Below are positions 12,089 through 15,600 of a DNA stretch of 42,073 nt, piece after piece (position 1 is the first letter of the stretch; the number at the start of each line of letters is the position of its first letter). Source of the DNA: Thioalkalivibrio sp. GTDB lineage: Bacteria; Pseudomonadota; Gammaproteobacteria; Ectothiorhodospirales; Ectothiorhodospiraceae. A program made the position numbers and the translations under genes. The stretch is from the NCBI GenBank assembly GCA_011389655.1, contig JAABTX010000017.1, positions 1 to 42,073 of the forward strand, written 5' to 3'. The notes under the pieces are model-generated. The model ran no database searches. It was not told the origin of the DNA and saw only the letters and a program-made list of their open reading frames with translations.

Positions 12089-12604
12089 TCAGGGTCTATC
12101 CTGGAGCGGATCCGGAGAGAGGACCTCGATGGCTCCGGTGTGCCGCAGCTCTGCCCAGATGGCGCCGACCGTCCGCTGGCTGCCGGGCAGCGGCAGCTCC
12201 GGAGCCAGCATCGCCAGTGGTCCGAGCACGTAGGTGCGGGTGAGGATCTCCGGATGGGGAAGCGGCGGTTGCGCCGATACCAGCCGGTCCAGCAGCAGCA
12301 GGTCCGCGTCCAGGGTCTTCGGGGCATGGCGCGGCTCGCCGGACCGGCGGCCCAGGCGCGCCTCCAGCTGCTTCAGCCATCCCACCAGTTCCATTGGCGA
12401 CAGTGACGTGTCGAAGGCGACGCAGAGGTTCCAGTAGTCCGGTCCGTGATAGCCGGCCGCCGGACTGGCGCAGACCGGGGAACGCCGCAGCGCACCGAAG
12501 GCGCCGGCAATCGCGCCCAGCGCAGTGCGCAGGTGGCTTGCCGGCTCGACGTTGCTGCCGAGTCCGACAAAGGCACGCCGGGACGGACCGGGCCCGGCAT
12601 TCAA
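12089..12604 (-). CDS. folK: 6-hydroxymethyl-7,8-dihydropterin pyrophosphokinase
   Basis: Transfers pyrophosphate from ATP to hydroxymethyl-dihydropterin in folate synthesis, cytoplasmic, about 171 aa (E. coli 159). HPPK blocks visible: AFVGLGSNVEPASHLRTAL, YWNLCVAFDT, RRSGEPRHAPKTLDADLLLLD and PHPEILTRTYVLGPL. The start is TTG at 12604: it overlaps the folB stop by 4 bp (TTGA), and the nearby ATG at 12600 is in another frame. It follows folB, so consecutive pathway enzymes are made together. Confidence 0.94.
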   Translation of the reverse strand: MNAGPGPSRRAFVGLGSNVEPASHLRTALGAIAGAFGALRRSPVCASPAAGYHGPDYWNLCVAFDTSLSPMELVGWLKQLEARLGRRSGEPRHAPKTLDADLLLLDRLVSAQPPLPHPEILTRTYVLGPLAMLAPELPLPGSQRTVGAIWAELRHTGAIEVLSPDPLQDRP

Positions 12605-12954
12605 GGTCGGTTCCGTTCGATAACGATGCCGACCTCGCGCACGCCCGCTACCGCGCCCGGCTTGCCCACGGTCAGGCGAATCGAGTGGCAGCCGAACCGT
12701 TCCAGCAGCGTCTGCGCGATCTCCTCGGCCAGACCCTCGAGCAGAACGTGGGCGCCGCGGGTCACGATCGAGCGGACACAGTCGGCGACGGCCGCGTAGT
12801 CGATGGTGTCACCGATGTCTCCGGAGTCCGAGGCGGACCGCGTATCCGTGTCCAGTTCGATGTCGAAGCGCAGGCGGCGCCGGATCCGCTGCTCCCAGGC
12901 ATGAATGCCGATCACGGCTTCAACTTCGAGGTCGTGCAGATAGATGTGATCCAT
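12601..12954 (-). CDS. folB: Dihydroneopterin aldolase
   Basis: Converts dihydroneopterin to hydroxymethyl-dihydropterin and glycolaldehyde, the step before FolK. The 117-residue length is standard. It starts MDHIYLHDLEVEAVIGIHAW, with EQRIRRRLRFDIELDTD, TIDYAAVADCV, LLEGLAEEIAQTLL and IRLTVGKPGAVAGVREVGI; the catalytic Lys lies in VGKPGA. A strong GGGGAGG lies upstream of ATG 12954. It is first of the folB-folK pair and divergent from the amidoligase gene. Confidence 0.95.
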   Translation of the reverse strand: MDHIYLHDLEVEAVIGIHAWEQRIRRRLRFDIELDTDTRSASDSGDIGDTIDYAAVADCVRSIVTRGAHVLLEGLAEEIAQTLLERFGCHSIRLTVGKPGAVAGVREVGIVIERNRP

Positions 12955-13146: not shown

Positions 13147-14139
13147 ATGAGCAGCCGTTTTCGAGAATTGCCCTGGCCGGACGCCCCCGACGGGCGCCCG
13201 CGCCGCATCGGGGTGGAGATCGAAATGGGGGACGTTGCACTGGACGTGATGGCCGCGGCCGTGCGCGCGGAGTTCGGCGGGCGGATCGAAAGCGGCGGAG
13301 CCTTCGTCACGTACGTGCGCGAAACGGAGTACGGGGACTTCAGTGTGGAACTGGACGCCAGCGTGCTCCGGGACCACCGCTACCGCGAGCATCTCCGGCG
13401 CCTCGGGGTCGAGCTCGATGCAAGGGATCAGGAGTCCCTGGACCGCTGGCTTGCTGATGCCGCGGCCCGCCTGGTCCCGTACGAGATCGTGGCTCCTCCG
13501 GTACCGATGACCGTGCTGCCGCGTCTCGACCGCGTCCGTGGCACACTCCAGCGGCAAGGAGCGCAGGGGACCCAGGCGTCGCTGCTGTACGCCTTCGGGC
13601 TGCAGCTGAACATCGAGGCGCACAGCCTGGATGCGGATTGGCTCACTCCGCTGCTGCAGGCCTTCGTGCTGCTCTACGAGGCACTGGTCAAGGCCGGCAA
13701 CATCGACCTCGCCCGCCGGCTCACGCCATTCATCAAGCCCTTCCCGGGCAGCTACGTACGTCACCTGCTGCAACCCGCCTACCGCCCGGGGATCGGCGAG
13801 CTGATCGACGACTACCTCGAGCACAACCCGACCCGAAACCGCCCACTGGACATGCTGCCCCTGTTCGCAGTGATCGATGCACAGCGTGTACGGTCGGCGC
13901 CGGTGGAACACGAACTGATCAAGCCGCGTCCGGCACTGCACTACCGGCTGCCGAACTGCGAGATCGACGACCCCGAATGGACTCTGGCACGACCGTTCAA
14001 TGCATGGGCCGAGGTGGAACACCTGGCGGCGGACACGGACCGCCTGCAGGATGCGCGCGCGGAATACCTGCGGCGTCCCGCGCAGGCGCTCGGGCAGTTC
14101 GCGGACCAATGGGCGCAGCGGATCCGTGACTGGTTCTGA
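13147..14139 (+). CDS. Putative amidoligase (PF12224-type, glutamine-synthetase-like fold)
   Basis: A 330-residue protein with the signature start of the putative amidoligase family: RRIGVEIEMGDVALDVMAAA (E24 and E26 probable metal ligands), then GDFSVELDASVL, YEIVAPPVPM (about 116), LLYAFGLQLNIEAHSLDADW and a conserved FIKPFPGSYVRHLLQPAYRPG (about 197-217). It ends with ALHYRLPNCEIDDPEW, ARPFNAWAEVEHLA and an Arg-rich helix. Family members are predicted to use ATP to form amide bonds between carboxylate and amine groups, but the substrate is unknown. ATG 13147 has an AGGAG upstream. Its end overlaps the next gene by 14 bp, so ligase and hydrolase are coupled. The folate neighbours are divergent and probably unrelated. 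Confidence 0.8.
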   Translation: MSSRFRELPWPDAPDGRPRRIGVEIEMGDVALDVMAAAVRAEFGGRIESGGAFVTYVRETEYGDFSVELDASVLRDHRYREHLRRLGVELDARDQESLDRWLADAAARLVPYEIVAPPVPMTVLPRLDRVRGTLQRQGAQGTQASLLYAFGLQLNIEAHSLDADWLTPLLQAFVLLYEALVKAGNIDLARRLTPFIKPFPGSYVRHLLQPAYRPGIGELIDDYLEHNPTRNRPLDMLPLFAVIDAQRVRSAPVEHELIKPRPALHYRLPNCEIDDPEWTLARPFNAWAEVEHLAADTDRLQDARAEYLRRPAQALGQFADQWAQRIRDWF

Positions 14140-14974
14140 TCCGGAAACAGCCCGCGAAGAGACGGACGGTGCGAGCCGGCGTCCACTGGTCGCGATCACC
14201 GGACCGGACCGCGGCGGCTGGCCGGCATGGTTCTTCACCGCGCTGGCCGTGCGCCGGGCGGGCGGCCGACCGCTCAGGATCCGCCCGTCACGACCCTGCT
14301 ACCGCTGCGATTTCGATGCCCTGATCGTCGGCGGCGGCGCGGACGTCGACCCGGCGCTCTATGACGAGCCCGGGGGGCCGAGCGCCAGCGACATCCAGGC
14401 GGCCGAGCGCCGCTGGACGCAACGGCTGATCGGCTACGCCTTCTACCCGATGCTCTGGCTGCTCCGCCGCATGTTCCAGTCGCATCGGGGCGGCCTCGAC
14501 CCCGAGCGGGATCGCCTGGAGAAGGCCCTGATCAACCGCGCGCTCGACGGCCACCTGCCGGTGCTCGGCATCTGTCGCGGCATGCAGCTGATCAACGTGG
14601 TGCTCGGAGGGAGCCTGAACCGCAGCCTCGACGCGTTCTACGTGGAGACCCCGAGGTCGCGCAGCCTGCTGCCGGTGAAGAAGATCTCCGTCGAATCCGG
14701 CAGCCGGCTGGAGGAGGTCTTCGACACTGGAGAATTGTGGGTCAATGCGCTGCACGATCAGGCCGTGAAACGTCTGGGCCGGCGGATCCGGGTCGCGGCC
14801 TGCGAACCGGCGGGCGTGATCCAGGCGATCGAGTCCACGGCCGGCTGGTGCATCGGCGTGCAGTGGCACCCCGAATACCTGCCGCAGAAGGAGATCCAGC
14901 AGCGGCTGTTCCGGGCCCTGGTGGAGGCCGCCCGGCAGGCACCCGCGCGGCCCGGTCAGCTCGCGGCCGGATAG
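14126..14974 (+). CDS. Class I glutamine-amidotransferase-like hydrolase (gamma-glutamyl-GABA hydrolase family)
   Basis: A 282-residue cytoplasmic protein of the peptidase C26/PuuD-like group. The nucleophile elbow is [17 protein letters not shown] (C150) and the triad is completed in GVQWHPEY (H248, E250). [15 protein letters not shown] (66-80) matches the family. Unlike PuuD it carries an insertion at about 90-125 with a hydrophobic stretch ([14 protein letters not shown]). Start GTG 14126 lies inside the amidoligase gene, giving a 14-bp overlap; no later start keeps the full domain. The partner suggests it removes or transfers gamma-glutamyl-type amides made by the ligase, or supplies ammonia. 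Both are inference. It ends tail-to-tail with msrA (19-bp overlap). Confidence 0.82.
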
Positions 14975-15600
14975 GGAATGCCGAGCCCCCCCAGGCCGCA
15001 GTAACCCTCCGGGTTCTTCGCCAGGTACTGCTGGTGATAGTCCTCCGCGAAGTAGAAATCCTCCAGCGGCCTGATCTCCGTGGTCACCGGACCGCGGCCC
15101 GCCGCGCGCAGGATTTCATTGAAGCGCTCGCGGCTGGCCTCGGCCACCGGCAGTCGCCCCGGATCCGCAGGATAGATTCCCGAGCGGTACTGCGTCCCGA
15201 CGTCGTTTCCCTGGCGCATGCCCTGGGTGGGATCGTGACCCTCCCAGAAGATCTTCAGCACCTCCTCGAGCGCAAGCCTGGACGGATCGAAGACCACGCG
15301 GACGAGCTCGTTGTGCCCGGTCATGCCCGAGCACACCTCTCGATAGGTCGGATTCGGGGTATGGCCGGCACCATAGCCCACTGCGGTCACGTGAACGCCC
15401 GGCTGTCGCCAGAACAGACGTTCCGCGCCCCAGAAGCAGCCCATGCCGAGGTGGACCACCTCCATCCCGTCGGGATAGGGCGGCAGCAGCGGGACGTCGA
15501 GCACCGCGTGGCGCTCGGGTACCGGCATCGGGGTCGCGCGTCCCGGCAGCGCCTCCGAGGGATCGGGCATGCGGGTCTTGTGCATCGCGGCAAACAACAT
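14956..15600 (-). CDS. msrA: Peptide methionine (S)-S-oxide reductase
   Basis: Repairs oxidised methionine in proteins using thioredoxin. It has 214 residues, with the catalytic motif [13 protein letters not shown] (C55) and a resolving cysteine near the C-terminus ([10 protein letters not shown]201). [24 protein letters not shown] and [23 protein letters not shown] are diagnostic. A leader of about 45 residues precedes the core, as in E. coli MsrA, and has no signal peptide. ATG 15600 has GAGGAG six bases upstream, and that site overlaps the stop of the dehydrogenase gene ahead of it (gap 10 bp), so they form an operon. Confidence 0.95.

Follow-up and report, generated by a model that had tools for sequence, protein, structure and literature searches.

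A conserved pair of a predicted amidoligase and a C26-family protein with a clade-defining insertion and, in a minority of loci, DedA-family neighbours

Two overlapping genes in a Thioalkalivibrio genome

The stretch of DNA analysed here, referred to as the window, comprises 42,073 nucleotides of a contig from the soda-lake sulfur bacterium Thioalkalivibrio sp. (JAABTX010000017.1, assembly GCA_011389655.1). Two overlapping genes lie on its forward strand (Table 1). The initial annotation, made from the sequence alone, had read them as a PF12224-type ligase and a C26-like hydrolase that overlap by 14 bp, and this is borne out by profile searches and open reading frame coordinates. A profile scan of the window places folK and folB divergently and msrA convergently on either side of the pair.

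Table 1. Features of the ligase-C26 locus and its closest neighbours in the window
Feature	Position	Strand	Remarks
Amidoligase_2 (PF12224) protein, predicted GS-fold ATP-dependent carboxylate-amine ligase	13147..14139	+	330 aa, ATG start, TGA stop
Peptidase_C26 / class I GAT-like protein	14126..14974	+	282 aa, GTG start
Overlap of the two genes, 14 bp	14126..14139	+	possible translational coupling
Ligase E24-x-E26 (GVEIEM)	13216..13224	+	probable metal/ATP site in the first strand; all 57 aligned ligases have both Glu
C26 insert helix, residues 100-118 (hydrophobic, then RR)	14423..14479	+	within the clade-specific insertion, which lies between Y79 and D125
C26 nucleophile C150	14573..14575	+	Cys in 118/119 loci, one row cut
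C26 triad H248 and E250	14867..14875	+	each in 118/119 loci, one row cut
folB, divergent neighbour, outside the module	12601..12954	-	PF02152, E 3.9e-28
msrA, convergent neighbour, outside the module	14956..15561	-	PF01625, E 1.5e-58

The gene arrangement recurs elsewhere. Among the 119 non-redundant loci with a C26 partner, 26 have the same 14-bp offset, 25 of these with a GTG start. For 90 of the 119, the possible C26 start closest to the ligase stop overlaps it, a count that the choice of the nearest start favours.

Along its full length, the window ligase scores well above the curated cut-off of the Amidoligase_2 profile (E 2.2e-56, 191.9 bits against a cut-off of 22, profile positions 2-243 of 245). 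Its AlphaFold2 model (57 sequences; pLDDT 91.2, pTM 0.89) superimposes on glutamine synthetases (GS) with a VIA Z score of 12.5 and an rmsd of 3.8 over 211 aligned residues, and all 50 entries in the VIA listing are GS-type. As judged from this model, the ligase carries a glutamine-synthetase-type fold, so the initial annotation's concern that such a fold might be absent did not materialise. Foldseek returned weak matches to YbdK, GS, plant glutamate-cysteine ligase and PafA (best E 0.03). The ligase thus resembles the GS superfamily in its modelled fold and in the E-x-E motif of the first strand, the metal-binding role of which we take over by analogy with GS and PafA. It differs from these enzymes in its pairing with a C26 protein, and a sequence search of the PDB gave nothing significant for it (best E 0.35).

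The second protein belongs to the Peptidase_C26 family (PF07722; E 4.8e-42, 144.6 bits against a cut-off of 20.5, best stretch at profile positions 82-219), with a further match to GATase (PF00117, E 7.5e-13). The Cys-His-Glu triad that the initial annotation had called intact is present at C150, H248 and E250, and it is whole in every partner row that is not cut. In the structural comparison, the C26 model (54 sequences; pLDDT 83.3) is closest to PuuD (6vtv, Z 28.3), Lin1909 (Z 28.0) and SpuA (Z 26.8), with which it has the fold, the triad and the ICRG nucleophile region in common; gamma-glutamyl hydrolase 1l9x also appears among the matches (Z 19.3).

PuuD and SpuA hydrolyse gamma-glutamyl amides. 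Their closeness favours a reading in which the pair makes and breaks a gamma-glutamyl bond in the manner of PuuA/PuuD or SpuA. Here, the ligase would glutamylate an amine and the C26 enzyme would later remove the glutamate, the amine being masked, moved or detoxified in the meantime. The presence of a GS-fold gamma-glutamyl-methylamide synthetase (9qur, Z 11.1) among the structural matches of the ligase also speaks for this reading. Against it, the window partner reaches only 85.3 bits with the PuuD equivalog model NF008471, the cut-off of which is 266. Moreover, phmmer alignments place K185 and Q233 where PuuD, SpuA and Lin1909 have His and Glu. Position 185 is Lys in 112 of the 119 loci and position 233 is Gln in 118. 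From these three sequences, we infer that the His and Glu may be defining for a hydrolase. Together with the gene neighbourhood described below, these differences lead us to regard the make-and-break reading as somewhat unlikely.

Distribution and pairing

PF12224 proteins were found in 35 of 58 genomes, including all 30 of the genus, in 20 of 369 genomes of the class and in 24 of 398 of the phylum; weak matches in three genomes (G234, G560, G621) were excluded as relatives. To our profile of 18 rows for the C26 subfamily, 18 of 369 class genomes, by their identifiers the same set, gave matches with E values of 1.6e-66 or better, and all of these adjoin the ligase by coordinates. The next-best C26 proteins in this sample follow at E 1.3e-51 or worse. 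None of the up to eight candidates scored per genome belonged to the subfamily in the remaining 351 class genomes, 349 of which are PF12224-negative. The two PF12224-positive genomes among them have a phage-type locus (G295) and a weak match (G234). Fisher's test for co-occurrence in the class sample gives 1e-28; since many of the 18 positives are rows of the query profile, their presence follows by construction, and it is the absence from the other 351 that carries information. This constant company of a GS-fold ligase in the class sample, together with the clade-specific insert helix, sets the subfamily apart from PuuD, SpuA and Lin1909.

Across a wider collection, 191 ligase rows collapsed to 130 loci at 97% identity. 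The C26 partner adjoins the ligase in 119 of these; it is lacking in ten despite sufficient room, and one locus lies at a contig edge. The ligase-C26 pairing is therefore near-obligate, and the possibility weighed in the initial annotation, that the two genes might rarely co-occur elsewhere, can be set aside. Close relatives are over-represented in this set, as the 80 named loci, of which those of Thioalkalivibrio are nearest, are the best matches to a window-led profile. The distances among ligases and among partners correlate with an r of 0.84 over 116 loci, to which shared species history contributes; the highest of 999 shuffles reached 0.13. The case for pairing beyond chance comes from the two strong profile matches and from the recurrence elsewhere. 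Four of seven inspected alphaproteobacterial plasmid loci (11 records found) contain the ligase alone, which together with the ten partnerless loci shows that the ligase can manage without its partner.

Several loci depart from the common arrangement. In Halieaceae/Haliea, three loci (L145, L149, L154) retain the ligase and lack the partner, which the related L128 possesses; partner loss is the probable cause. L128, L145 and L149 have a small open reading frame downstream in common, which falls just below the cut-off for DUF3144 in L128 and was recognised by eye in the others. The ligases of Desulfurivibrio sp. AMeS2 (L080) and a Desulfobulbaceae contig (L086) are 68-70% identical to that of the window and nest among Thioalkalivibrio rows, reflecting either transfer between soda-lake bacteria or mis-binned contigs. 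One 12.5-kb Bdellovibrionales contig (SYLX01000102.1) carries the pair two times, in inverted orientation (L123 and L125), probably through an assembly artefact.

Phages of the LUZ24 type and OM43 phages have a PF12224 ligase with a glutamine amidotransferase nearby, according to passages in two phage reports (PMC3890496, PMC10580990). As far as these passages describe them, the phage systems use a class II enzyme (GATase_6, PF13522), whereas the window partner is of class I (PF07722/PF00117), and the LUZ24-type phages add ATP-grasp and COOH-NH2 ligase genes. A cluster of the phage type is present in G295 (L049 3865-6690, minus strand), where a PF12224 ligase accompanies a class II GATase_6 and a gamma-glutamylcyclotransferase. 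A phage origin of the window ligase was considered and rejected, as a tblastn search of 50,697 phage records with a threshold of E 1e-3 gave no match.

We conclude that the ligase and the C26 protein form a real, conserved and uncharacterised enzyme pair, which spans several phyla. In our literature search, no worked-out function was found for it, PF12224 appeared by name in phage papers only, and no paper combined an amidoligase with a gamma-glutamyl-GABA hydrolase. The pairing as such probably belongs to an already predicted kind. Several papers cite Iyer et al. 2009 as the source of amidoligase predictions, and this is probably the family-level comparative genomics to which the initial annotation alluded. 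The C26 pair, and even the link to DedA proteins described below, may already have been noted there. As far as could be checked, the putative membrane insert, the split into two partner forms and the DedA neighbours are new.

A clade-defining insertion and DedA-family neighbours

The partner occurs in two forms, which differ in the spacing between Y79 and the ICRG motif. A script typed 38 rows as short (33 residues) and 73 rows as long (61 to 73 residues); the eight rows that it left untyped were assigned by eye as three long, four short and one cut. Overall, 76 of the 119 loci have the long form, 42 the short form, and one is cut. The extra segment consists of a hydrophobic stretch followed by basic residues. 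In the window protein, it falls between Y79 and D125, where the model has helices at residues 87-93 and 100-118 with a pLDDT of 54-67 across the block. The best 19-residue hydropathy of the insert ranges from 0.64 to 2.09 across 14 rows, the window protein being lowest at 0.64.

On the ligase tree, obtained with a quick method, the form of the partner changes once, indicating that ligase and partner have been inherited together. By record titles, and with single MAG contigs in several cases, the insert-bearing loci span Pseudomonadota, Thermodesulfobacteriota, Balneolota, Bdellovibrionota, Myxococcota, Acidobacteriota, Sumerlaeota and Thermomicrobiota. The unusual insertion at about residues 90-125, with its hydrophobic stretch, that the initial annotation had remarked upon is real: it forms a helix of hydrophobic and basic character by which a single clade of 76 loci is defined.

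The initial annotation had also suggested that the pair acts as a self-contained module and had proposed a tabulation of third genes. We carried this out for 110 of the 119 immediate neighbour proteins in 74 dereplicated loci. Nine neighbours were left out: suspected wrong-strand calls (two each in L064 and L138, one in L068), a broken YqaA (L062) and the downstream genes of L086, L114 and L123. In several GC-rich loci, the gene caller written for this work picked the wrong strand, and the YqaA of L134 escaped it. The VTT domain of the DedA family (VTT_dom, PF09335) leads the table with 11 of the 110 proteins, followed by MFS_1 with four; all other families occur once or twice. The pair is therefore not always a two-gene unit, as DedA/VTT neighbours stand out, mostly beside the insert-less form. 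The same table counts against the make-and-break reading, since no pathway family except VTT_dom, be it an amine oxidase, a dehydrogenase or any other, exceeds four of the 110 neighbours.

Nine of the 11 VTT proteins are YqaA-like; they are 140-150 aa long and related to E. coli YqaA, with 41% for the first row. The remaining two represent a different DedA type: in L063, the gene sits immediately upstream of an insert-bearing pair and overlaps it by 4 nt, and in L192 it lies immediately downstream of an insert-less pair. A YqaA-like gene follows the pair directly on the same strand in 11 of the 42 insert-less loci and lies within 2.3 kb in three more, leaving 28 with none within reach. Beside the 76 insert-bearing loci, two of which lack room, there is none. 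This association between insert and YqaA has a Fisher value of 4.5e-6 with kinship ignored, and the tree offers one contrast only, so the idea that insert and YqaA replace each other is unsupported. A strict replacement was rejected, as the insert-bearing genome G108 retains a YqaA of the linked type away from the pair and L063 combines an insert-bearing pair with a DedA neighbour. Mutual exclusion of insert and DedA is not general, since two of the 11 VTT neighbours belong to the other type and one of these adjoins an insert-bearing locus.

At the genome level, YqaA-like proteins with at least 200 bits occur in ten of 34 pair-positive genomes (unlinked to the pair in G181, G281 and G108) and in none of 80 pair-negative ones. 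After removal of six profile members, the counts are four of 28 and none of 80 (p 0.004). Weaker YqaA relatives are equally common in both groups (8 of 34 and 19 of 80). DedA linkage of the pair is thus supported in a minority of loci. In the window itself, no YqaA-like gene was found; the best match in its genome (E 2.4e-10) is on another contig.

Further observations were made at individual loci. In E. coli K-12, yqaA adjoins gshA (L155 2884-4941), which encodes another gamma-glutamyl ligase, an arrangement that would suit the make-and-break reading. The YqaA-like gene beside the pair in G281 looks broken (L062 7555-7782), with an intact close copy on another contig; this genome also encodes a further PF12224 ligase that stands alone (L065). 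In Balneolales, membrane proteins that resemble bacterial PH domains are encoded after four insert-bearing pairs (L106, L107, L110, L117), in the same orientation; they were identified as bPH_2 in L110 and by eye in the others. These proteins are possibly another membrane partner in this lineage.

A candidate membrane-associated amidotransferase

We tentatively favour the view that the pair constitutes a two-subunit, membrane-associated, ATP-dependent enzyme that forms amides, and we hold it with less than even confidence. Here, the GS-fold subunit would use ATP to activate a carboxylate as an acyl phosphate. The C26 subunit would cleave glutamine or a gamma-glutamyl compound via its Cys-His-Glu triad and pass the ammonia to the ligase, giving a carboxamide product. 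In the insert-bearing clade, the insert helix would tether the complex to the inner side of the membrane. At many insert-less loci, the adjacent small YqaA-like DedA protein may instead anchor the complex or carry a membrane-bound product. Catalysis by either protein, formation of the complex, transfer of ammonia and membrane association are all predicted from the features described above.

Four features lead us to prefer an amidotransferase over make-and-break chemistry: among up to eight candidates per genome in the class sample, the C26 subfamily never occurred apart from the ligase; the two genes overlap; their surroundings contain no other recurrent pathway family; and residues common to three hydrolase relatives are changed. 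Against it stand the gamma-glutamyl hydrolase activity of the characterised C26 relatives PuuD and SpuA and the loci at which the ligase has no partner. We know of no C26 relative that supplies ammonia to a partner enzyme. A working analogy is provided by MurT-GatD, in which a ligase and a class I GAT amidate a membrane-linked carboxylate, as stated in parts of two reports (PMC3267633, PMC5871853). MurT, as far as these parts describe it, is a relative of Mur ligases, while the window ligase is predicted to be GS-fold.

The membrane link of the proposed enzyme is suggested by the insert and the DedA linkage; against it, the insert of the window protein is the least hydrophobic of the 14 rows compared and the model is unsure in this region. 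GatD, for its part, presumably belongs to a GAT family other than that of the window partner. Alternatively, the pair could be a soluble two-subunit amidotransferase that acts on a cytosolic peptide, cofactor or protein, with the insert and the DedA linkage as side features. Pairing as such needs no membrane, most insert-less loci have no YqaA within reach, and folate-type genes adjoin the pair in a few unrelated settings. This account leaves unexplained why a hydrophobic-basic insert is kept over eight phyla (by record titles) and why two DedA types occur beside the pair, and we consider it unlikely.

Returning to the membrane-associated amidotransferase, the search for its substrate can be narrowed to membrane compounds in view of the insert and the DedA linkage, and we think that the substrate is a lipid or lipid-linked carboxylate. 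For COG1238 DedA proteins, which include YqaA, a role in moving lipids that are uncharged or carry a positive charge has been proposed (PMC10127716), and one such protein affects indium resistance according to a portion of another (PMC8679861). In its most specific form, the pair would be a lipid (or lipid-linked) carboxamide synthase that neutralises a carboxylate of membrane lipids, the product of which is flipped by the DedA protein. The two DedA types beside the pair raised our estimate for this version slightly and left the others unchanged; we still regard it as decidedly doubtful. If true, it would imply a new lipid modification and a function for a DedA subfamily that lacks one. Through the linkage itself, a ligase of the GS fold is connected with a family of membrane proteins about whose cargo little is known.

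We also asked whether the pair could be the glutathione amide synthase still to be found in purple sulfur bacteria and their relatives, for which an amidoligase with a GAT offers the expected chemistry. Glu21 of glutathione reductase served as proxy for glutathione amide use, as taken from a part of PMC8877833. It was sought in 36 genomes, namely 34 pair-positive ones, one with a lone ligase (G032) and one with the phage-type locus (G295), and in 30 pair-negative genomes. A type-1-like reductase with a readable residue was present in 16 pair-positive genomes (nine with Glu), in 11 pair-negative genomes (four with Glu) and in G032, where the residue is Glu; the remainder had another reductase type, weaker relatives only, no locus or, in G276, a motif that the script did not read. 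The genome of the window and five members of its genus or family (G010, G022, G029, G031, G034) have the Glu. Pair and proxy are nevertheless mismatched in both directions, as seven of the 16 pair-positive genomes have another residue (G108, G206, G658, G077, G249, G061, G237) and four of the 11 pair-negative genomes have Glu (G045, G050, G033, G055). In addition, Ect. mobilis DSM 237 has the pair (L095), and the portion of PMC8877833 that covers this strain reports that no glutathione reductase was found there. A glutathione amide synthase is accordingly disfavoured, and we consider it highly improbable.

Among the remaining neighbours, genes of folate type accompany the pair in three settings that are unrelated to one another, namely folK/folB in the window (12089-12954), a dihydropteroate-synthase-type gene in L100 (30-815) and a distant FolB-domain gene in L315 (2207-2602) on pDSHI02 of Dinoroseobacter shibae. 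The FolB of the window recurs near the pair only in Thioalkalivibrio-type loci, and we did not take these genes as evidence of a folate link. Downstream of the pair, metH is present in four loci, and the msrA neighbour cluster is on the opposite strand in all 14 of its loci.
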